This document shows, one piece after another, positions 25,002-35,729 of a stretch of 64,000 bases of DNA. The stretch is taken from contig NZ_CP044016.1 of NCBI RefSeq assembly GCF_004337365.2, positions 1,612,001-1,676,000 on the forward strand, written 5' to 3'. The position numbers and the translations under genes are program-made. Source of the DNA: Rhizosphaericola mali (GTDB lineage Bacteria > Bacteroidota > Bacteroidia > Chitinophagales > Chitinophagaceae). Below the pieces are notes generated by a model that worked only from the letters and a program-made list of their open reading frames with translations, searched no databases and was not told the DNA's origin. Within the stretch, counting starts at the first letter, position 1, and each line of letters opens with the position of its first letter.

Positions 25002-26396
25002 CTATTTTGTTCCTCCTCCTAATGCTGCATACAAATTCACTACAGCTTGTAACTGCTGTAATTTATCTGTAATAGAGCTATGTTGAGCCGTCAAAAGATT
25101 TTGCTCAGAAGTAAGTACATCTGTGAAGTTAGTTGTGCTTGTATATTTTAATAGTTCTTTGGTAAAATGTACAGCCTTTTGTAAATTGGCAATTTGTGCT
25201 GTACGAGATGGTTTTTTTTCTTCCACCATATTGAATTGATACAATGCATTGGATACTTCTTCTCCAGCAGTTAATAGTACTTTTTGATAATTGTACTTGG
25301 CAGCTTCATAATTTGCTTCCGCAATTTTAAGTCTTTGTTTGTTTAGTCCATTATTGAAAATAGGTTGAGTTAAGCCTGCAACTAAATTGGAGAAAAAGGA
25401 TGTAGTACTAAAAAAATTATTCAATTTAGTTCCATAAAAACCAGCCTCGCCAGTTATTGTTAATGCGGGATAGAAATAAGCACGAGCCACATTTGTCAAT
25501 TCAAAATAGCTTCTCAACTGGTATTCTGCTTGTTTTACATCTGGTCTATTTGCAAGTAGTTGAGTAGGCACTCCTATTTTTAATGTTTCATAAATAGGTT
25601 CATTAAACAGAGAATCTCTTGCTATTGGACCTGGAGATCGACCTAACAATAAAGAAATCGTATTTTCGGATTGTCGAATATTATTTTTTATATCAGGAAC
25701 TGTTGCTAAAACAGAATAATAATTGGCAGCACTTTGCACCACCGCTGCACCAGTAACTACGTCTGCATCTTTTAATTTGCGCATAGTAGTTGTATCTAAT
25801 GCATAGCGCGTTAATGACTGTTGAGCTATATTTAATTGAGCATCATATGCCATTAATTGAAAATATGCCGCTGCGATATCTGCAACAATTTGTGTCTGTA
25901 CTGCTTGACGATTAGCATCACTTGCTAACAATGTTGCTAACATTGACTTTTTTGTACTGCTCAATTTCCCCCAAATATCTACTTGCCAAGAGGTTAAACC
26001 ATACAATTGATAGATTCGAGTGGCGCTACCTTGCGTATTTGCATTGGTTAGTTTATGATAAGCTCCAGCAGAAGCATCAATTGTAGCAGTTGGTATAAAT
26101 GCCAATTTACTTTGATCAAAATTAGCTTCTGCCGATTTTATATTTACAATAGCAGTTTTTAAATCTAAATTACTTTGAATTCCTTCGGAAATTAAATTCT
26201 GTAGAATAGTATCTTGAAAAATTTCTTTCCATGAAAGTGATGCCATATTAACACTATCTCCAATAGGATTTCTAAATAAACTATCTGGTATCCGTTCACG
26301 ATTGACATAGGGCTTGTTAACTTTACAACCAATTATAGTCGCCATCACTATAGCTACAATTATTAAAGATAAATATTTATTATACCAAAATCTCAT
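25002..26396 (-). CDS. outer-membrane efflux factor, TolC/OprM-like lipoprotein
   Basis: 464 aa. The N-terminal signal has lipobox IIGC (Cys near residue 24), so it should be lipid-anchored like OprM. The remainder is alpha-helical with OEP-type repeats; DIWGKLSSTKKS and LAGLTQPIFNNGLNKQRLK are typical of the outer-membrane factor family. It lies 47 bp after the RND pump on the same strand as the third gene of the operon. It would form the outer-membrane exit duct for the adaptor and pump encoded upstream. The long palindrome just downstream should end the operon. Confidence 0.92.
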   Translation of the reverse strand: MRFWYNKYLSLIIVAIVMATIIGCKVNKPYVNRERIPDSLFRNPIGDSVNMASLSWKEIFQDTILQNLISEGIQSNLDLKTAIVNIKSAEANFDQSKLAFIPTATIDASAGAYHKLTNANTQGSATRIYQLYGLTSWQVDIWGKLSSTKKSMLATLLASDANRQAVQTQIVADIAAAYFQLMAYDAQLNIAQQSLTRYALDTTTMRKLKDADVVTGAAVVQSAANYYSVLATVPDIKNNIRQSENTISLLLGRSPGPIARDSLFNEPIYETLKIGVPTQLLANRPDVKQAEYQLRSYFELTNVARAYFYPALTITGEAGFYGTKLNNFFSTTSFFSNLVAGLTQPIFNNGLNKQRLKIAEANYEAAKYNYQKVLLTAGEEVSNALYQFNMVEEKKPSRTAQIANLQKAVHFTKELLKYTSTTNFTDVLTSEQNLLTAQHSSITDKLQQLQAVVNLYAALGGGTK

Positions 26397-26443
26397 TCTG
26401 TTACTGATTTAAAATTTCACACACCAAATTACGGTTCACTTTA

Positions 26444-29400
26444 TTATTTTTCATCCAGAATTAATTCATCATTTTCATCGTATTTATTAACGCCCATTTT
26501 TTCTTGCAAACCTTGGAATATTACATATAATCCAGGAATCACAAAAACGCCTAAAAATGTTCCAAACAGCATACCTCCAATAGAACCAATACCTATTGAT
26601 TTATTACCATTAGCACCTACACCACTAGAGAATACCAACGGCAGCAAACCAAATATAAAAGCTAATGAGGTCATTAAAATAGGACGAATCCTAATCTTTG
26701 CACCAGCAATGGCACTCTCCAATAATCCCATTCCTTCTTTTCGCTTTTCCAAAGAAAATTCTACCATTAAAATGGCATTTTTAGCCAATAACCCAATCAA
26801 CATAATCATACAAATCTGGACGTATATATTATCATCAATGTCAAACATTTTAGCAAATACAAATATGCCAAAAAGCCCGATTGGTAAGGAAAATAATACG
26901 GCGAAAGGAAGAACATAGCTTTCATAAAGTGCGCTCAATAATAGATATACAAAACACAAACTCAAAGAAAATATAATAATAGCTTGAGCGCCAGTACTTT
27001 GTTCTTCTTTACTAATACCACTATATTCAAAACTATAACCCGGAGGTAAGTCAGATACGGCGACATCATTAATGGCTTGCATCGCTTGTCCCGTACTATA
27101 GCCATCTGCAGGAGATCCGCTTACAGAAATAGCATTATACATATTAAACCTTGCCATAGTTGATGGTCCATAGACTTTTTTCATCGTAATATACTCTGAA
27201 ATGGGTGTCATGGTGCCGCTACTATTTCTAATTTTAATATTACTTAATTGACTTATATTTCCACGATAAATGGTATCTGCTTGTAGGATAATTTCATATT
27301 GCTGACCAAATTCTGTAAAATTACTTACATACGAACTTCCATAATAGACATTGATCAAATTAAGTATATTGATAGGGGCAATTCCATTGTCTTCACATTT
27401 GGGTACATTTACATCTACACGATATTGTGGAAAGTTTGGATTAAATGCAGTTGCGGCATATTGAATTTCTGAACGAGTATTTAAAGTATTTAAAAATTTC
27501 TGAGACACTGCATAAAATTCTTGAATACTATGCCCCCCTCTATCTTCTAGTTGAAAAGTAAAACCACCACTTGTTCCGAAACCACTTATTGTAGGTTGTT
27601 GCATAAAATTAATAGCAACTCCGGGAATGTGTTTCGTCTTTTCAGTCAATTCTTTTATGATCATTCTATCTGTAACACCAGGACGCTTGCTCCAATTCGT
27701 CAATCTCAAAATCAACATACCATAAGAACTCCCACTACCGCCTAATTGGTTTTGACCAAGTGTTGTCATTGTTGCTTGGATTTCGGGAATAGTACGACTA
27801 ATACTGTCAATTTCGTGATTGACGACTTGGACACGTTCTTTCGTAGCCGCGGCAGGCAATGTTACATTCACAAAGACAGTTCCCATATCTTCCGAAGGAA
27901 CAAAGCTTGAGGGCATACTCTTAATTATAATGTAAAAAAAGCCACCAAAAATCAAAACAATAAGAATGGTCAACCATTTCCTTTTCGCGATGGAACTAAC
28001 CGCATTGGAATATTTATTTACAACTTTATCATAGCCATTATTAAATCCTGACTTTATTTTTTGCAAAACAGTCTTTTTTTCCCCATCTTTCACATGAACT
28101 GGTGGTTTCAAAAACATCGCTGCCAATGCGGGGCTTAGTGTTAATGCATTAAGTGCAGAAATCATGATTGCAAATGCCAACGTAATACCAAATTGCTTAT
28201 AAAATACACCAGCCGAACCACTCATAAAAGTTACAGGTAAAAAGACTGAAGCCATTACCAATGTAATAGAAACAATGGCAGGCGCGATTTCTCCCATTGC
28301 ATCAATTGCTGCTTTTCTCGGTGAAGTATATCCATTTTCCAATTTACTATGCACAGCTTCCACCACTACCACTGCATCATCTACTACAATTCCGATTGCC
28401 AAAACCAGTGCAAACAAAGTGAGTAGATTTAAACTATAACCAAATATATATAAAAAGAAAAAAGTACCAATAATAGAAACAGGTACAGAAATACCATGAA
28501 TAATCGTAGAACGAACGTCCTGTAAAAAGATTAAAATCACTAAAAATACAAGTAAGAAACACTCTATTAAAGTGTGTAATACCTTGTCAATACTCTCACT
28601 TAAAAAATTATTAATATTTACTAATTCTACCGATTGAATACCAGACGGAAAGCTCTTTGCCGCATCTGCCATTACTTTTTGAGCCCCCAAAATAACATCT
28701 TGTGCATTTGATCCAGGAGTCTGACTGATAGCAATGGAAACACCAGGCCTACCATTAATAAAAGTTGAAGCAGTGTAAGTCTGGGTACCTAGTTCAACTC
28801 TTGCGACATCTTTTAAATATAAATATTGCCCATCACCAATAGCTTTTACTATTATATTTTTAAATTGATCTATAGACACCAAAGTTCCAGAATAGGTTAA
28901 ATCATATTGAAATGCTTGATTTCCATTGTCACCAACTTTCCCAGGAGCGGCGTTAAAATTTTGATTATTTAAAGCGGTTGTGACGTCCGAAGGATTTAAG
29001 CCATAATCTGCCATTTTATCCGGTTCTAACCATATACGCATAGAATAGGTCATAGCACCTCCAAACACATTGGCTCCTCCTACTCCATTGGCTCTTTGTA
29101 ATTGAGGTACTAAATTGATCGCTGCATAATTTTGAAGAAATTTTTGATCAAATTGTGGGCTATTACTATAGAGTCCGACAATGAGCACATTACTATTTTG
29201 TTGTTTACGTACAGTAACACCCGCTTGAGTTACGGCAGCTGGCAATTTGGACAGAACGGTACTAATACGATTCTGTACATCCACAGCCGCTTGATCTGGA
29301 TCGACACCTACTGAAAAGAAAATACTAATAGTTGCAGTTCCTGTATTACTAGACGAAGAGGTCATATAAGACATCCCTTCCACGCCATTGATTTGTTGTT

Positions 29401-29596
29401 CCAAAGGAAAAACAACACTATTTATTAAGGTGGTAGTATTCGCCCCTGGATAAGATGCGGAAACTTGAATCGTGGGTGGTGCTATATCTGGATATTGCGC
29501 TACAGGCAAACTACTAATCCCCATAATACCTAATACGATTATAATCACCGAAATAACTGTACTTAGTACGGGTCTTCTAATGAAAAGTTTTAACAT
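26444..29596 (-). CDS. RND multidrug efflux pump, HAE1 (AcrB-like)
   Basis: 1050 aa, the standard HAE1 length. FIRRPVLSTVISVIIIVLGI at the start is the first membrane segment. The proton-relay Asp pair is visible in GIVVDDAVVVVEAVH in TM4, and a Lys/Asn-bearing LAKNAILMVEFSL in TM10. Porter and docking regions lie between TM1-2 and TM7-8. It is an inner-membrane, proton-driven exporter working in a tripartite complex with the adaptor 4 bp upstream and the TolC-like factor 47 bp downstream. Substrates are not predictable from sequence. The operon is divergent from a LytS/LytTR pair. Confidence 0.95.
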   Translation of the reverse strand: MLKLFIRRPVLSTVISVIIIVLGIMGISSLPVAQYPDIAPPTIQVSASYPGANTTTLINSVVFPLEQQINGVEGMSYMTSSSSNTGTATISIFFSVGVDPDQAAVDVQNRISTVLSKLPAAVTQAGVTVRKQQNSNVLIVGLYSNSPQFDQKFLQNYAAINLVPQLQRANGVGGANVFGGAMTYSMRIWLEPDKMADYGLNPSDVTTALNNQNFNAAPGKVGDNGNQAFQYDLTYSGTLVSIDQFKNIIVKAIGDGQYLYLKDVARVELGTQTYTASTFINGRPGVSIAISQTPGSNAQDVILGAQKVMADAAKSFPSGIQSVELVNINNFLSESIDKVLHTLIECFLLVFLVILIFLQDVRSTIIHGISVPVSIIGTFFFLYIFGYSLNLLTLFALVLAIGIVVDDAVVVVEAVHSKLENGYTSPRKAAIDAMGEIAPAIVSITLVMASVFLPVTFMSGSAGVFYKQFGITLAFAIMISALNALTLSPALAAMFLKPPVHVKDGEKKTVLQKIKSGFNNGYDKVVNKYSNAVSSIAKRKWLTILIVLIFGGFFYIIIKSMPSSFVPSEDMGTVFVNVTLPAAATKERVQVVNHEIDSISRTIPEIQATMTTLGQNQLGGSGSSYGMLILRLTNWSKRPGVTDRMIIKELTEKTKHIPGVAINFMQQPTISGFGTSGGFTFQLEDRGGHSIQEFYAVSQKFLNTLNTRSEIQYAATAFNPNFPQYRVDVNVPKCEDNGIAPINILNLINVYYGSSYVSNFTEFGQQYEIILQADTIYRGNISQLSNIKIRNSSGTMTPISEYITMKKVYGPSTMARFNMYNAISVSGSPADGYSTGQAMQAINDVAVSDLPPGYSFEYSGISKEEQSTGAQAIIIFSLSLCFVYLLLSALYESYVLPFAVLFSLPIGLFGIFVFAKMFDIDDNIYVQICMIMLIGLLAKNAILMVEFSLEKRKEGMGLLESAIAGAKIRIRPILMTSLAFIFGLLPLVFSSGVGANGNKSIGIGSIGGMLFGTFLGVFVIPGLYVIFQGLQEKMGVNKYDENDELILDEK

Positions 29597-29599
29597 GGC

Positions 29600-30751
29600 T
29601 TAAGGATTAGAATTAGTTTGCATGGTATTATAAAGACTATCCGTATTGATACGCATCGGTTTTATAACAGTACTATCACTGATATTTAAACCATTTAATA
29701 ATACTTTTTCCCCACTTTTTACACCTTTTGTAATTACAAGAAAATCGCCATCATCTGTAGTTGATGTATTTACAGCGACACTTATTACTTTATTCCCAGG
29801 AATGATTTTATATACAAATGATTTGTCTTGCAATTGATAAATGGCTACAGCTGGCACTAATAATGCACTGTCCATATCTCGAGGAATACGCACTGTTGCA
29901 CTTGATCCATTTTGAATAATTCCCATCGAATTACTGAAAGTGGCTTTTAATGTTGCCGTTCCTGTTGTACTTTGAATACCTCCGCTAGCCGTTTCTAATT
30001 TTCCTTTCACAGGATAAATAGTCCCATTTGCCAACACAAGTGTTACGGGTGGTATATGACTTAATTTTTCGGTCATGGTATTTCCTGCTACATGAGCCAT
30101 AAAACCTAATAATTGTCGCTCACTAAAGGAGAAATAAGCATACACGCTTGACGTATTGGATAATGTAGTAAGAGGGTTGGTAGTTGTACTACTTACCAAC
30201 GCACCAATTTTATAAGGAATTAATCCGATCACTCCATTTTGTGGACTTCTTAAATAAGTATATCCTTGATTTGTCTGTGCATTTGCCAAGGTTGCATTGG
30301 CTTGAGCCAATGCGGCTTGTTGAGATTGTAAGGTATATTGAGCAGCTTCAAGTTCATATTTACTCACAATATCTTGCTCCACCAACGGCCTAACCTTTTC
30401 AACATTCATTCTTGCAGTATTCACATTTGCAACTGCAATTTTAACTGCCGCTTTAGCTGTTTTTATATCTTGTTCGTATTGCGGATTTTTGATCCTAAAT
30501 AATAATTGGCCTTTTGTAACGGTCGCACCTTCTGGTACATAGATTTCTTCTAAATATCCAGATACCATTGGACGAATTTCAACGACATTTTGACCTTGTA
30601 TAGTTGTTGGAAAATCTCTATATACGGTTACTTCCTTCGGTTTTAATTCCAATACCTGATAACTTTGAATTGCCTTTGTTTTGGTCTCGGTCATTTTGCT
30701 TTTACAGGCTGTAAAAGCGATCATTAAAATGAGAAAATATATTCTATGCAT
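29600..30751 (-). CDS. RND efflux adaptor (membrane fusion protein), AcrA-like lipoprotein
   Basis: 383 aa with lipobox FTAC (Cys near residue 16), so anchored to the inner membrane by lipid. The lipoyl-like half motifs VVEIRPMVSGYLEEIYVPEGATVTKGQLL flank a helical hairpin (about 90-165), followed by beta-barrel and membrane-proximal parts containing SGEKVLLNG. It is the first gene of the operon: adaptor, pump, outer-membrane factor. No -7 element matching TAnnTTTG was recognised upstream. Its start lies about 290 bp from the LytS start, with transcription diverging. Confidence 0.92.
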   Translation of the reverse strand: MHRIYFLILMIAFTACKSKMTETKTKAIQSYQVLELKPKEVTVYRDFPTTIQGQNVVEIRPMVSGYLEEIYVPEGATVTKGQLLFRIKNPQYEQDIKTAKAAVKIAVANVNTARMNVEKVRPLVEQDIVSKYELEAAQYTLQSQQAALAQANATLANAQTNQGYTYLRSPQNGVIGLIPYKIGALVSSTTTNPLTTLSNTSSVYAYFSFSERQLLGFMAHVAGNTMTEKLSHIPPVTLVLANGTIYPVKGKLETASGGIQSTTGTATLKATFSNSMGIIQNGSSATVRIPRDMDSALLVPAVAIYQLQDKSFVYKIIPGNKVISVAVNTSTTDDGDFLVITKGVKSGEKVLLNGLNISDSTVIKPMRINTDSLYNTMQTNSNP

Positions 30752-30964
30752 ATAGGAGCTTGTAAGTTAATTGCTATTAAGATATAGTAAACAATCTAAT
30801 TTAAAATTACATTTTTTAAATAGGAACTTTATTTTATTTCGATTAAACATTTATTTTTTTCGGTCAATATATGTGATTTCATTACGCGATCGAAACAAAG
30901 TTTGCATAGAAATTTGAAGAAATTTTGTTTTTTATATAAAACATTCTATTAAAACGAGACATTG

Positions 30965-30996
30965 AACGTTTAGATGCTTAAGTCGTCCGTTTCATA
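30965..30996 (+). promoter_or_regulatory. candidate LytTR operator upstream of the kinase gene
   Basis: AACGTTTAG (30965-30973) fits the known LytTR half-site pattern [TA][AC][CA]GTTN[AG][TG]. A second CGTTT begins at 30988, 21 bp after the first at 30967. The -7 TATTTTTG begins 41 bp after the second. Confidence 0.55.
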
Positions 30997-31028
30997 TTGG
31001 AGTAAGTTGCTCAATATCATTGAAGTTG

Positions 31029-31036
31029 TATTTTTG
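31029..31036 (+). promoter_or_regulatory. -7 element of the kinase gene
   Basis: TATTTTTG matches TAnnTTTG exactly and ends 6 nt before ATG 31043. It lies inside the longer reading frame from 30974 and so supports the later start. The same octamer occurs at 32913. Confidence 0.55.
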
Positions 31037-31042
31037 TTAAAT

Positions 31043-32065
31043 ATGAACCAATTTCCAAAAGCCAAATTAATCAGATTAAGTTTTACATTATCATTTGCTA
31101 TTTCGCTCATGATGGTATTCTTTTTTTGGGCTTCTGGAAAGTTTCAAGGAATCATAATTTATCGATTCGTTGGTGCATTTATTTTTTTTTTACTGACAAA
31201 CTGGGTAAACATTTTTTTATTTCAACAAACTAATAAATTTAATACTTCTAAAATTGGCAAACTATTATTTTTGTTAATTAGTTATATTGGAACTCTGCTA
31301 TCCTGGATGACCTCGTGGTATGTTTCTAGATTTTTGGCCCACTACGTTATACATAATTCTGAAATTGATAAAGTAACTAAATTTTCCATAGTTGCCTTAT
31401 CCGTTTTTTGTTCGGATGTTGTAATTTTATTAATCCAAAGATTGGTAATTTCCCAGTATAATGAATCTCGAAAAGAGATTGAAAACCTATCTCTAAAAGC
31501 AAATTTAGCAGATGCCTCAAATCTTTTATTACGCCAACAACTACAACCTCATTTTCTATTTAATGCCTTAGCTACACTGAAGTCCTTATACAAATATAAT
31601 GTTGGGCAGGGTGAGGAATATCTAGTGCATCTAGCCAGTTTTTTAAGAGAATCCTTATTGCACAAAGCTGCACATACGGTATTATTGGAAGATGAGCTAA
31701 TATTTTGTAATCACTATATAAAAATGCAGGAAATTCGATTTGGCGCTGCTATGAACTATAAAGTGCATATATCTGAAAAAACTGCGAAGACAAAACATTT
31801 ACCTTATTTTTCCTTACAGCCTTTAATTGAAAATGCATTCAAACACAATGATTTTACAGAAGAAAAGCCACTTAAAATAGAAATATTTGAAGATGAAGAT
31901 TACATCGTTGTGCGAAATAACTTAAAAGAACGAAGACAAGTATCTGAATCTACTGGCAACGGATTATCTAATCTCTCGGAACGCTATAAATTGTTAAACG
32001 AGGCACCGATCCAAATTATCACAAACGATGGTAGATTTGACGTGCGATTAAAATTATTGGGATAA
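31043..32065 (+). CDS. sensor histidine kinase, LytS/YehU-type
   Basis: 340 aa from ATG 31043. Several hydrophobic segments (about 10-140) form a membrane sensor region, followed by the His_kinase domain with LQPHFLFNAL (phospho-acceptor His170) and an ATP-binding part with LQPLIENAFKHN and GNGLSNLSERY. A longer frame from 30974 adds 23 residues, but these would cover the candidate operator and the -7 TATTTTTG. The stop is directly followed by the response-regulator ATG, so they form an operon. Signal sensed is unknown. The gene is divergent from the RND efflux operon. Confidence 0.9.
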   Translation: MNQFPKAKLIRLSFTLSFAISLMMVFFFWASGKFQGIIIYRFVGAFIFFLLTNWVNIFLFQQTNKFNTSKIGKLLFLLISYIGTLLSWMTSWYVSRFLAHYVIHNSEIDKVTKFSIVALSVFCSDVVILLIQRLVISQYNESRKEIENLSLKANLADASNLLLRQQLQPHFLFNALATLKSLYKYNVGQGEEYLVHLASFLRESLLHKAAHTVLLEDELIFCNHYIKMQEIRFGAAMNYKVHISEKTAKTKHLPYFSLQPLIENAFKHNDFTEEKPLKIEIFEDEDYIVVRNNLKERRQVSESTGNGLSNLSERYKLLNEAPIQIITNDGRFDVRLKLLG

Positions 32066-32824
32066 ATGAATATTATCATTATAGAAGACGAAAGACTTAC
32101 TGCTGCAGACTTGCAAGCGACTATAGAATCTATTGATAACAGCTTAGTAGTGGTAAAAATAATAAAATCTATAGAAGAGGGTATCTTTTATTTTAAAAAG
32201 CATGTTGAGGTTGATTTGATATTTAGTGATATCCGTTTGGGGGATGGTTTAAGTTTTGAAATATTAGGACCCTTGCAGATTCCTGTAATTTTCTGTACGG
32301 CTTATGATGAATACGCATTGACAGCTTTTAAGGCCAATGGAATAGACTATATACTCAAACCTTTCACCGATAAGGAAGTGCGGCTCGCTATTGATAAATT
32401 TAAACAACTCAAAGGCAATCAAACCGAAAATATCCAGCAGCAATATGAAGCCTTGTCGGAAATTTTCAAATATTCCGCACCAAAGCCGGCTTCACTATTG
32501 ATACGACTCAGAGATAAAATCATTCCGATAAAGTTTGAACAATTTGCTCTTTTTTATTTGGAAAATAATATTGTAAATGCCGTTACATTTGATAGTGAAA
32601 CATATCATCCGAGTAAGACGTTGGATGAATTGGAACAAATGGCGGGCGATGCTTTTTTTCGGGTAAATAGACAATATTTGATTCATAGAAATGTCGTGAA
32701 ACACGCATCCAATATACTTTCTAGAAAATTATCCATCAGCATCAACATACCGCATGCTGCCGATATATTAATAAGCCGGGAGAAATCGCCTCAATTTTTA
32801 AAATGGCTATCTGGTGATTTGTAA
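32066..32824 (+). CDS. response regulator with LytTR DNA-binding domain
   Basis: 252 aa. The receiver domain (about 1-120) has the acidic pocket IIEDE, the phospho-acceptor Asp55 in FSDIRLGDG and Lys in YILKPF. The C-terminal LytTR domain (about 145-250) includes FFRVNRQYLIHRNVV. It starts immediately after the kinase stop, so the pair are cotranscribed and cognate. Candidate LytTR sites occur upstream of the kinase gene and of the next gene at 32940, with the same geometry, suggesting autoregulation and control of the outer-membrane protein gene. Confidence 0.93.
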   Translation: MNIIIIEDERLTAADLQATIESIDNSLVVVKIIKSIEEGIFYFKKHVEVDLIFSDIRLGDGLSFEILGPLQIPVIFCTAYDEYALTAFKANGIDYILKPFTDKEVRLAIDKFKQLKGNQTENIQQQYEALSEIFKYSAPKPASLLIRLRDKIIPIKFEQFALFYLENNIVNAVTFDSETYHPSKTLDELEQMAGDAFFRVNRQYLIHRNVVKHASNILSRKLSISINIPHAADILISREKSPQFLKWLSGDL

Positions 32825-32847
32825 CTGATCATTCGGATAGAAATTTG

Positions 32848-32877
32848 ATCGTTTGGCATTTAGAATTGTACGTTTCA
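32848..32877 (+). promoter_or_regulatory. candidate LytTR operator upstream of the outer-membrane protein gene
   Basis: ATCGTTTGG (32848-32856) and TACGTTTCA (32869-32877) place CGTTT at 32850 and 32871, 21 bp apart, with CAT following each. The -7 TATTTTTG starts 42 bp after the second repeat, the same layout as upstream of the kinase gene. Confidence 0.55.
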
Positions 32878-32912
32878 CATAGAAACTACTTTTCCTACAA
32901 TAAGTGCATAGT

Positions 32913-32920
32913 TATTTTTG
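32913..32920 (+). promoter_or_regulatory. -7 element of the outer-membrane protein gene
   Basis: TATTTTTG, exact TAnnTTTG match, ending 19 nt before the ATG at 32940. Confidence 0.55.
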
Positions 32921-32939
32921 ATCAAATTTTATTTCCGAT

Positions 32940-33968
32940 ATGCGACATCTCTCTCTGGCAGTTCTCTGTTTTCTTATTTTGAATCATACATTGGCACAAA
33001 AAGATACAAGTAAACTCTCCCAACCAGATTCTGCAACAATGGCAACAATACGTGCGAGGATTATAGAAAATGCTGCAATATTAAATCCTCGATTACGACA
33101 ATTTTACATAGCTCATGAGGAACAAGGGACGAGCGATATCACTTCTAAATATAAAGATGGCACAGAAGCTTCTAGTGGCACATTTCGTATCGAACGTACA
33201 CTTATAAATATGAATATGCCCATATTGCAACGTGGAAAAAGTACATTAATTTCGAGTTATGGATTCGTCAACCAGATTTTTCATATCGGAACAAATATGC
33301 CTAATGGTTCAGTGGAAAACACTACCAAATCCATGCAAATGCTTACTGCTGGACTTACCTATGCAACGCAGCAAAAATTATTTGGAAAAGATTTAACTAT
33401 TATTGGTATGACTAGTGGATTATTCACAGCTAGTTTCGATAAGGCTCAACTTACTGCTATGGCAATAGCGAGTCTTACGTTGAAAAGAACGGCAACGACA
33501 CAGATGTCTGTAGGTGCAGCATTTTTATATGACCCCTCTAGTCCATCTCCATTTTTACCGACATTTAGTTACTATCATAAATTCACCGATGCCAATTTAG
33601 ATTTCATGCTCGACTTGCCATATAGATTGTCTATTCGCAGACAATTTTCCCAAAAATTCTCTTTAGCATTTTCTAACGATATGATTGGTTACAATTCCTT
33701 TTTCGACCAAGCTAACCTAACCACGGATAACAGACAAAAATTTGTTTATTCTTATCTAGAAGTAAAATCAGGATTTTTAGCAGAATACAGATTGGGTAAA
33801 AAAGCTATTTTGAGCCTAAGTAGTGGCATCAATTCACCATTGAAATCGAGAATTTTCGAAAACTATTCTAAACCAAATGATTATTTAATTAAAAATAATT
33901 TGCATGTAGTTCCGTATGTGCAGATTGGATTTTCAATGTTACCGTTCTGGAATGGTTTGAATTTGTAA
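32940..33968 (+). CDS. predicted outer-membrane beta-barrel protein
   Basis: 342 aa with a signal peptide (MRHLSLAVLCFLILNHTLAQ, cleavage about residue 20). The mature part has many alternating hydrophobic/polar strands, such as LSIRRQFSQKFSLAFSNDMI, and no TonB box or plug, as in small barrels of Bacteroidota; no specific family is recognised. The upstream region carries a candidate LytTR operator matching that of the kinase gene, so it is probably a target of that two-component system. No terminator was recognised directly after it. Function unknown. Confidence 0.7.
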   Translation: MRHLSLAVLCFLILNHTLAQKDTSKLSQPDSATMATIRARIIENAAILNPRLRQFYIAHEEQGTSDITSKYKDGTEASSGTFRIERTLINMNMPILQRGKSTLISSYGFVNQIFHIGTNMPNGSVENTTKSMQMLTAGLTYATQQKLFGKDLTIIGMTSGLFTASFDKAQLTAMAIASLTLKRTATTQMSVGAAFLYDPSSPSPFLPTFSYYHKFTDANLDFMLDLPYRLSIRRQFSQKFSLAFSNDMIGYNSFFDQANLTTDNRQKFVYSYLEVKSGFLAEYRLGKKAILSLSSGINSPLKSRIFENYSKPNDYLIKNNLHVVPYVQIGFSMLPFWNGLNL

Positions 33969-33988: not shown

Positions 33989-34903
33989 TCAATTGAACAA
34001 ATTTCTAAATTCCAAAGGGCTCAAATTCGTTTTAGATTTGAATAGTTTTGTAAATGATGCTGGATGTTCAAAACCTAATTCATATGCTATTTCACTGATC
34101 GTAAGATGTGTAGTAGATAGCTTTTCTTTGGCTTTGTCAATTAGTTTATTTTGAATATATTGTTGTGTTGTTTGACCTATAAAAACTTTTAATAAACTTG
34201 TTAAATAGTTGGGCGTCAGATGCATTTCTTCTGCAATATCTGTTACAGACGGAATCCCGTTGTTTAATAGATTTTGTTCTTTGATCTTTTCATTTAATAA
34301 TTGGTCTAACTTAGATAAAATTTCGTGATTTACCTTTTTTCTAGTAATAAATTGTCGTTCGTAAAATCGCTCTGTATAATTACATAAAAGCTCTATTTGC
34401 GAGAGAATAATGTTTTGGGTAAATTTATCCAAATTCGACTGATATTCTTTTTGAATATTCTTAAAAATATCGATCAACATGAGTTCTTCTTTTTTGGATA
34501 AAAAAAGTGCTTCATTTACAGCATATCCAAAGAAATCATATGTGTTCAACTTTTGAGCTAATCCAGTTCCCCATATAAAATCTGGATGAACGAGCAACAA
34601 CCAACCCGAAGGTTCAGCTTCTGCATTGGGATCAATTTCTATACGAATGACTTGTTGGGGAGCGACCAAAGCTAGAACGCCCTCTTGAAAATCATATGGT
34701 TGTCGCCCATAGTTGAATTTCTTACTAACATTACGTTTTAATCCAATAGAATAAAAGTTTTGAACCCATTTAATATCGGTATATTCTGGAGGGTATTGCA
34801 CTAAACTATAATCAATCAAGCTCACCAAAGGATGCTCTGGTTCGGGTAAATGTGCAAATTTGTGAAAATCATATATCGAGTTAAGTGTAAGTTCTACTTT
34901 CAT
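33989..34903 (-). CDS. AraC-family transcriptional regulator
   Basis: 304 aa from ATG 34903. C-terminal helix-turn-helix units contain SVTDIAEEMHLTPNYLTSLL and ISEIAYELGFEHPASFTKLF, ending NLSPLEFRN. It is a paralogue of the regulator at 11538: both have YDFQEGVLAL/YDYQEGTLVF and FYERQFITRK/FYDRQFITRE. A longer frame from 35032 overlaps the end of the SDR gene and a terminator hairpin, so it was rejected; MKVELTLNS gives a start like that of the paralogue. A -7 match lies at 34921-34928. With the upstream SDR it forms a third SDR/AraC pair in the window. Confidence 0.87.
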   Translation of the reverse strand: MKVELTLNSIYDFHKFAHLPEPEHPLVSLIDYSLVQYPPEYTDIKWVQNFYSIGLKRNVSKKFNYGRQPYDFQEGVLALVAPQQVIRIEIDPNAEAEPSGWLLLVHPDFIWGTGLAQKLNTYDFFGYAVNEALFLSKKEELMLIDIFKNIQKEYQSNLDKFTQNIILSQIELLCNYTERFYERQFITRKKVNHEILSKLDQLLNEKIKEQNLLNNGIPSVTDIAEEMHLTPNYLTSLLKVFIGQTTQQYIQNKLIDKAKEKLSTTHLTISEIAYELGFEHPASFTKLFKSKTNLSPLEFRNLFN

Positions 34904-34920
34904 AGTTTTTATTCTGTATA

Positions 34921-34928
34921 CAAATTTA
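34921..34928 (-). promoter_or_regulatory. -7 element of the AraC gene
   Basis: Minus-strand TAAATTTG matches TAnnTTTG, 17 nt before ATG 34903. Confidence 0.55.
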
Positions 34929-34938
34929 AACTTTAAAA

Positions 34939-34971
34939 TATCGGAAATAAGTTGTTGACTTATTTCCGATA
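34939..34971 (-). terminator. terminator between SDR and AraC genes
   Basis: 14-bp perfect stem (34939-34952 with 34958-34971), 5-nt loop, followed on the minus strand by TTTTAAAGTTT. The SDR stop is 12 bp before it. Confidence 0.75.
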
Positions 34972-34982
34972 CCTTATAAAAA

Positions 34983-35729
34983 TTACCATTCTTGATCTGT
35001 TGGCAAAATGAATATTTCAGAAACGTCCACATAATCTGGAGACTCTAATGCATAAATCATACTATTGGCAATATCATTTGGTGTTAAAAAAGTCATTTGA
35101 TTTTGTAAGGATTCCATACCCTTTTTATAGTTTGTATCCGTAATCTGATCATATAGATTTGTTGCTACCGCTCCAGGTTGAATGCTTGTCACTCGAATAT
35201 TATATTTTTTGCCAATTTCCATACGCATAATATCAGAAAAAGCGGCTACAAAATATTTAGTACCACAATACACGGCTAAACCTTTGAACAATTTTCTTCC
35301 TGCTATTGAAGAAAGATTGATGATATGTCCATTCCTTTGTTGAATCAATTCTGGTAAAACTGCTGCAGTTACATTCAATACTCCTTTGATATTGATGTCC
35401 ACCATTTGATCCCATTCGTTTATTTTAAATGTGTCAATATCCGCAGCAGGCATTATTCCAGCATTGTTAATTAGGATATCTATTTTTCCAAAATGATTTT
35501 TGATTTTTTCGATTGCATTTTGAACACTTTTCTTATCTGCAACATCCATTGGACAAGCCAATGCCGTAAAGCCTTGTGTCGTTAAATCATCTACGATTTG
35601 ATGAAGTTTAGATTCGCTACGTGCAGCAAGGACAACTTTTACGCCTTTTTGTGCTAATATTTCAGCTACACCTTTTCCGATTCCACTTGAAGCACCTGTA
35701 ATTAAGGCGACTTTGTCTTTTAATTCCAT
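34983..35729 (-). CDS. short-chain dehydrogenase/reductase
   Basis: 248 aa, the usual length. TGASSGIG (about residues 12-19), NNAGIM (about 87-92), LSSIAG (about 138-143) and YCGTK (about 152-156) are the cofactor and catalytic motifs of a classical SDR; IQPGAVATNL follows. Similar proteins are often annotated as NADP-dependent alcohol or serine dehydrogenases of the YdfG type; the substrate is not known here. It lies 125 bp downstream of the MFS gene with a small dyad, ATGGAA-N5-TTCCAT (35791-35807), and a -7-like GAACTTTG (35750-35757) between. Confidence 0.88.
   Translation of the reverse strand: MELKDKVALITGASSGIGKGVAEILAQKGVKVVLAARSESKLHQIVDDLTTQGFTALACPMDVADKKSVQNAIEKIKNHFGKIDILINNAGIMPAADIDTFKINEWDQMVDINIKGVLNVTAAVLPELIQQRNGHIINLSSIAGRKLFKGLAVYCGTKYFVAAFSDIMRMEIGKKYNIRVTSIQPGAVATNLYDQITDTNYKKGMESLQNQMTFLTPNDIANSMIYALESPDYVDVSEIFILPTDQEW

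Follow-up and report, generated by a model that had tools for sequence, protein, structure and literature searches.

Three genes stand in a row on the forward strand of a stretch of 64,000 nucleotides of the Rhizosphaericola mali genome, referred to here as the window. The first (31043–32065) encodes a LytS-type histidine kinase (PF06580) of 340 residues (His_kinase 66.9 bits, cut-off 25.2). The second (32066–32824) encodes a response regulator of 252 residues, comprising a Response_reg domain and a LytTR domain (43.9 and 41.9 bits, each exceeding its cut-off). The third (32940–33968) encodes a 342-residue protein of the DUF6268 family (PF19783), which is probably an outer-membrane β-barrel and is the proposed target, as supported by Pfam and the promoter matrix. 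An AlphaFold2 model of this protein, calculated from two sequences, has a mean pLDDT of 44.7 and a pTM of 0.43, values too low for a fold search. The domain search thus finds the LytTR regulator gene between the two promoters described below, as the initial annotation had it, with His_kinase, Response_reg-LytTR and DUF6268 in succession. With a PF06580 kinase and a receiver-LytTR regulator, the genes have the composition of a LytTR two-component system. They do not form an LRS, which pairs a LytTR protein with a transmembrane inhibitor and has no kinase: here the LytTR protein has a receiver domain and is paired with a His_kinase.

The kinase most likely starts at the ATG at 31043, as judged from homology and from the position of the −7 box; the start at 30974 given by the mechanical open reading frame would overlap the operator and was rejected. 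In Sphingobacterium alkalisoli, which has the same gene order (regulator 61% and DUF6268 protein 42% identical), the kinase homologue is 46% identical and aligns from the second residue on. As the start lies 6 nt past the −7 box, the kinase mRNA is predicted to be nearly leaderless, beginning near 31041 with a leader of about 2 nt; the DUF6268 mRNA is predicted to begin near 32925.

Both the kinase operon and the DUF6268 gene are preceded by an operator of two half-sites and a −7 box, all on the forward strand. The CGTTT pairs by which the initial annotation recognized these promoters lie exactly where it placed them, at 30967/30988 and 32850/32871, with a spacing of 21 bp; the second copy in each pair (30988 and 32871) does read CGTTTCA, and TATTTTTG begins 41 bp further on in the first promoter (31029) and 42 bp further on in the second (32913). 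A matrix trained on relatives gives the full half-sites, and ranks the two operators first and second in the window over both strands. The operator of the kinase operon is composed of TTGAACGTTTAG (30962–30973) and TCGTCCGTTTCA (30983–30994), with a pair score of 16.9, and its −7 box TATTTTTG (31029–31036), 41 bp past the conserved C, matches the published consensus. The operator of the outer-membrane gene is composed of TTGATCGTTTGG (32845–32856) and TTGTACGTTTCA (32866–32877), with a pair score of 15.3, and its −7 box TATTTTTG (32913–32920) lies 42 bp past the conserved C; this promoter scores 17.9 bits with model R2 (see below).

The general consensus of a LytTR half-site is [TA][AC][CA]GTTN[AG][TG]. 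Compared by eye with these 9 bp, AACGTTTAG fits at 9 of 9 positions, ATCGTTTGG has one miss, and TCCGTTTCA and TACGTTTCA miss the final two. The window sites follow the rule of two repeats of 9–11 nt, 11–13 nt apart and upstream of a promoter; repeats and spacers of these lengths are described for LytTR regulators with mapped sites in the available part of PMC4847170. The housekeeping promoter of the Bacteroidota comprises a −33 TTTG and a −7 TAnnTTTG element, the box spanning −12 to −5 (available sections of PMC9723704 and PMC6847099). This TAnnTTTG box of the primary-sigma promoter is present at both window promoters, which share TATTTTTG with the housekeeping type and have an operator at the place where an activator would assist.

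The pattern CGTTT-N16-CGTTT occurs three times in the window, with 0.16 expected from shuffles; the third occurrence (1630–1655) is absent from the best 15 matrix matches of the window. Among those 15, a −7 box lies at the right distance only at the two reported sites, and these are likewise the only places in the 64-kb window where a CGTTT pair with up to two mismatches is followed by a strict TAnnTTTG at 40–42 bp. Exact CGTTT-N16-CGTTTCA is found at the same two sites alone in the 4.70-Mb genome. One mismatch adds 24 places (26 matches, versus 76 for the reversed control), and the pair followed by TAnnTTTG at about the same distance occurs genome-wide only at the two window sites, with none in the reversed control. 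By count alone, two exact copies in the genome are only mildly surprising, about 0.7 being expected by chance as estimated from the 24 one-mismatch places. Their significance derives from their placement on the two sides of a single LytTR gene, inside a span of 2 kb, and from their recovery by models trained without them.

Upstream regions of LytTR kinase genes (140 distinct, 117 after removal of near-duplicates) show the same periodicity. A motif-free search for any repeated 9-mer peaks at a lag of 21 (23 of 117 regions, some of which contain other repeats), with 0–11 regions at the other lags from 9 to 44. The matrix of the four window half-sites, which the initial annotation had suggested building, also peaks at lag 21 when run on relatives (15 of 112 regions), with 11 regions at lag 20, at most 9 at other lags from 12 to 40, and 6 regions on the reverse strand. 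The initial annotation held that a lack of enrichment in related genomes would count against it; the lag-21 peak shows that the enrichment is there.

The two-half-site matrix was trained on regions upstream of kinase genes in other genomes, with the own genome excluded, from the starting word TTGTCCGTTTCA, which was picked after inspection of the window and some relatives. It selected 37 of 112 regions, a number that is no proof because the matrix was trained iteratively on its own matches. The half-site it describes is approximately [AT]TGTC[CT]G[GT]TTCA, with a consensus of about TTGTCCGTTTCA; the paired LytTR arrangement is thereby supported, and the half-site is extended to about 12 bp from the CGTTT initially proposed. 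The tests relied on are sites outside matrix training (the window, the DUF6268 promoters and the downstream genes) and the distance to the −7 box, which was unused in training. Across 32 sites with scores above 15 (L042 was excluded because its best pair is out of register), TA-TT boxes at 40–42 bp past the conserved C give 27 matches, where a single site may count at two offsets, and at most 3 matches are seen at other offsets from 10 to 69. The cut-off of 11.5 was set afterwards, as the score of the weakest of six DUF6268 promoters, and is reached by 60 of 4,000 random 370-bp stretches of the window, the two sites included. A matrix trained on 14 Chryseobacterium loci only was set aside as too diverged, ranking the window sites just 19th and 70th by the repeats alone.

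Operator and −7 box occur together before the kinase gene in 32 of 117 LytTR loci, and the remaining 85 are without this combination by the criteria applied. Operator presence fits the regulator tree better than shuffled labels do, taking 18 changes (mean of 28.2 and minimum of 23 when shuffled), and many gains and losses remain. A signal recurring at nearly fixed promoter distances in many related bacteria is real, and it is of a known general kind.

Genes downstream of the regulator carry the operator as well. A scan of the 370 bases that span the end of the regulator gene and the sequence behind it, in 116 loci (window excluded), gives scores of at least 11.5 in 46 loci for the coding strand and in 3 for the opposite one; of the 46, 40 have a −7-like box at 39–43 bp. 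For the DUF6268 family, 22 genes were compared (21 of 22 homology matches plus that of L037; a 69-residue fragment was excluded), and a kinase–regulator pair is in reach of 14 of them (13 and the window). All six DUF6268 genes next to close regulators (E of 1e-50 or better) have the operator, with scores of 11.5–22.7. It is found before none of the eight next to distant kinase–regulator pairs (E of 1e-8 to 1e-15; maximum score 3.4) and before none of the eight with no such pair in reach (maximum 6.4). The Sphingobacterium alkalisoli DUF6268 promoter possesses the operator with TAAATTTG at 42 bp. For the orthologous DUF6268 gene of L037, an assessment by eye of 'no repeat' was overturned by the matrix (score 15.1, TAAATTTG at 42 bp). 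The sequence of the operators, their geometry, their recurrence at the same relative places and their link to close regulators are thus matters of observation.

These comparisons bear on the reading in which the window sites are a chance likeness, or belong to an unrelated regulator such as that encoded by the AraC-type gene at 33989–35032. Such a reading could draw on the shortness of CGTTT, on the post hoc nature of the first claim and on the single-mismatch copies scattered over the genome, but it is largely refuted and very improbable, as models trained without the window sites find them, the motif tracks close regulators and the DUF6268 controls give zero.

Some further repeats were noted near genes of these families. 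A GTATAAAA-like word is, by eye, repeated about 21 bp apart before the DUF6268 genes of L214 and L216, and other words are repeated at lag 21 before those of L217 and L218, all four having distant pairs; these perhaps serve LytTR regulators of different specificity that are associated with the DUF6268 family. In Chryseobacterium, Mucilaginibacter and Pedobacter (for example L050, L054 and L085), the protein after the regulator often has a GFAVLELFTSEGCSSCPPAD-like motif, and we take it to be DUF1223; the operator of these genes lies 42 bp from the −7 box. Some other target-gene products are, by eye, presumably DUF1223-like or TonB-receptor-like.

The set of operators extends beyond the locus. 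Model R2 was built from downstream-gene promoters of relatives (21 of 36 after a 68% identity cut), the own genome being absent. Among the 150 of 1,766 candidates scored in the own genome, R2 ranks the promoter of a TolC–MFP–RND operon first (23.7 bits; 1535523–1535593, minus strand), the window DUF6268 promoter second (17.9 bits) and three sites of a second LytTR locus third to fifth. The operon, composed of OEP, HlyD and ACR_tran genes, lies at approximately 1535 kb in the genome, about 109 kb away from the reported sites, and is likely to be a further target. TolC homologues directly follow the regulator gene in three relatives, where the best pairs score 17.3 (L193), 10.3 (L045, below the cut-off) and 13.9 (L047), with boxes at 41–42 bp. 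The LytTR regulon initially proposed is supported, and it is not confined to the two reported places: the efflux operon and the second LytTR-DUF6268 locus also carry such operators. Three tandem half-sites in 21-bp steps were also observed at about 1535.6 kb (L127:1569–1622), on the strand opposite the TolC gene; one is identical to TCGTCCGTTTCA of the window, and by eye a −7 box is lacking where one would be expected.

At E ≤ 0.02, R2 gives zero matches in eight of eight genomes with 0–3 regulator matches, which are smaller on the whole. Of nine genomes selected because relatives of the regulator are close or numerous in them, six give matches; four of these supplied sequences for training (G007, G137, G290 and G355), and 4 of the 16 matches coincide with training sites. 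At the same threshold nothing is found in the regulator-rich genomes G001 (same genus), G008 and G009. Model R1, built from kinase promoters (20 of the 32 sites, with one sequence, L011, from the same-genus G001), was rejected as a finder of the window sites, being good for the second locus and weak for the window. Its five best matches in the own genome all belong to the second locus, the window kinase site is 29th of 42 (11.9 bits, E of about 1), and the outer-membrane site is absent from the 42 matches. In 39 genomes, R1 yields 33 matches at E ≤ 0.05 and is unspecific: many of them fall within coding sequence, and some come from genomes with few regulators, such as G006, G011 and G038.

On the minus strand of the window (25002–30751), genes that by eye encode an outer-membrane efflux factor, an RND pump and an MFP are arranged divergently from the kinase operon. 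The RND pump (26444–30751) was considered as a target and is not claimed as one, since it has only a weak match on its own strand (30910–30963; 5.6 bits, E of 1.4) and no operator among the best 15 matrix matches of the window.

The second LytTR module, at approximately 1.80 Mb (about 1797.5–1805.2 kb; L203 and L253), resembles the window in possessing a kinase, a regulator, a DUF6268-like gene, 21-bp operators and the 41/42 spacing. It differs in its divergent gene order, its mostly GTCC-type half-sites and its extra target genes. Operators precede the genes of the DUF6268-like protein, the kinase, a second regulator, an LPG_synthase_TM protein and a GMC oxidoreductase. The DUF6268-like protein matches that of the window, yet no Pfam model at E ≤ 0.001. 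The extra regulator has SEI, versus SDI in the other two, so that the phosphate-accepting Asp seems to be replaced by Glu.

Another LytTR regulator, for example that of this second locus (39% identical), might bind the window operators instead of, or together with, the local one. There are 20 regulator matches in the own genome (itself included), and operators of the same build precede five genes at the second locus. GTCC, which is common in relatives, is missing from three of the four window half-sites, so another LytTR regulator could own or share the sites; in Streptococcus mutans, LytTR systems are reported to cross-regulate (accessible text of PMC6193735). We consider this unlikely, however: the half-sites of the second locus are mostly GTCC[AG]TTT or similar, whereas those of the window read NNCGTTT, and the two window operators lie on either side of their own regulator gene, in a gene order kept in Sphingobacterium alkalisoli.

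The preferred reading is that the sites are operators of the LytTR regulator encoded between them, which would autoregulate its operon and control the DUF6268 gene; taken as a whole, it is highly likely. Judging from the sequence, the sensor system very probably switches on its own genes and the neighbouring outer-membrane gene through these sites. We infer binding, phosphorylation, autoregulation, activation rather than repression, and a signal. The membrane histidine kinase would phosphorylate the regulator, probably on Asp55, and two LytTR domains would occupy the two half-sites (approximately TTGTCCGTTTCA), which lie two helical turns from each other on the same side of the helix. The dimer, extending from about −80 to −48, would adjoin the promoter on its upstream side and would aid RNA polymerase at the TAnnTTTG −7 box. 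Through operator 1 the kinase–regulator operon would be positively autoregulated, and operator 2 would drive the adjacent gene of the DUF6268 outer-membrane protein.

Repression at these sites has a precedent in AgrA of Staphylococcus aureus, which represses one promoter, that of bsaA, by binding immediately downstream of it (available part of PMC4227749). The window pairs, in contrast, precede the −7 box by a nearly fixed interval and are centred near −64, comparable to the AgrA repeats centred near −60 at activated promoters (PMC4227749, same part). Activation fits this position better than a steric block, and a repressor role is quite improbable. The repeat of Escherichia coli YpdB, GGCATTTCAT, resembles GTCCATTTCA of some relatives (available part of PMC4847170). 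The window differs from both AgrA and YpdB in half-site sequence, in having the Bacteroidota −7 box in place of −35/−10 elements, and in its targets.

The nearest published case, as far as the available sections of PMC6193735 describe it, is the LRS-like pair of Bacteroides. In Bacteroides thetaiotaomicron and B. ovatus, these operons have TCCGG...TCA-type repeats of 11 bp with an 11-bp spacer, followed after 11 bp by a TGTA (or TGTG)-19 bp-TATCTTTG promoter, and so in the same phylum a promoter is built much like those of the window. The repeat period is 22 bp there and 21 bp in the window. The Bacteroides operons encode a transmembrane LytTR protein and a DUF2154/NfeD membrane protein, whereas the window encodes a histidine kinase and a receiver-LytTR regulator, and in those sections no downstream target promoter is described.

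Kinase and target promoters differ in spacing. With the strict TAnnTTTG box and the window included, kinase promoters have spacings of 40 (three), 41 (seven) and 42 bp (one), that is, 10 of 11 at 40–41, whereas target promoters have 41 (one) and 42 bp (30), that is, 30 of 31 at 42. The contrast has a Fisher p of 8e-8 (6e-6 with a single Chryseobacterium), values that overstate independence because the sequences share ancestry. When one mismatch is allowed, kinase promoters number 16 at 40–41 versus 12 at 42, and target promoters 2 versus 37; the contrast is weaker since the spacing then comes to 42 bp in many kinase promoters of Mucilaginibacter and Pedobacter. The first open-frame ATG lies 1–6 nt past the box in 11 of 31 kinase promoters (6 nt in the window) and always at least 11 nt past it in target promoters (41 where found). 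With the box spanning −12 to −5, a gap of 4 nt corresponds to an mRNA starting at the start codon. Leaderless mRNAs make up 5.5% in Flavobacterium psychrophilum, according to the accessible part of PMC9723704.

We tentatively propose, as a possibility somewhat short of even, a two-class LytTR promoter code in the Bacteroidota, in which spacing and the absence of a leader set feedback gain versus output. If so, the kinase–regulator operon would have 40–41 bp and in many cases a nearly leaderless mRNA, and the genes served would have exactly 42 bp and mRNAs with leaders. A difference of a single base pair in spacing, together with the missing leader, would then tune the feedback loop against the output, and the shared outputs would be envelope and efflux genes (DUF6268, TolC–MFP–RND and others).

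Genomes of this family have up to 39 regulator matches each. Searches of open-access literature yielded neither operators nor a list of targets for LytTR regulators coupled to a kinase in the Bacteroidota, nor any description of DUF6268 as a LytTR target. A pair that may belong to this group is FJOH_RS09515/RS09520 of Flavobacterium johnsoniae: in each of five lines coevolved with an antibiotic producer one of the two genes was mutated, the LytTR-type regulator gene in two lines and the histidine kinase gene, which carries the adjoining locus tag, in three; the discussion, in the available part of the paper, covers just the regulator mutations (PMC10197871). With the motif and its fixed distance to the −7 box, candidate targets of such systems can be read from sequence. 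The uncharacterized DUF6268 family thereby gains a regulatory context, and the system is linked to an RND efflux operon.
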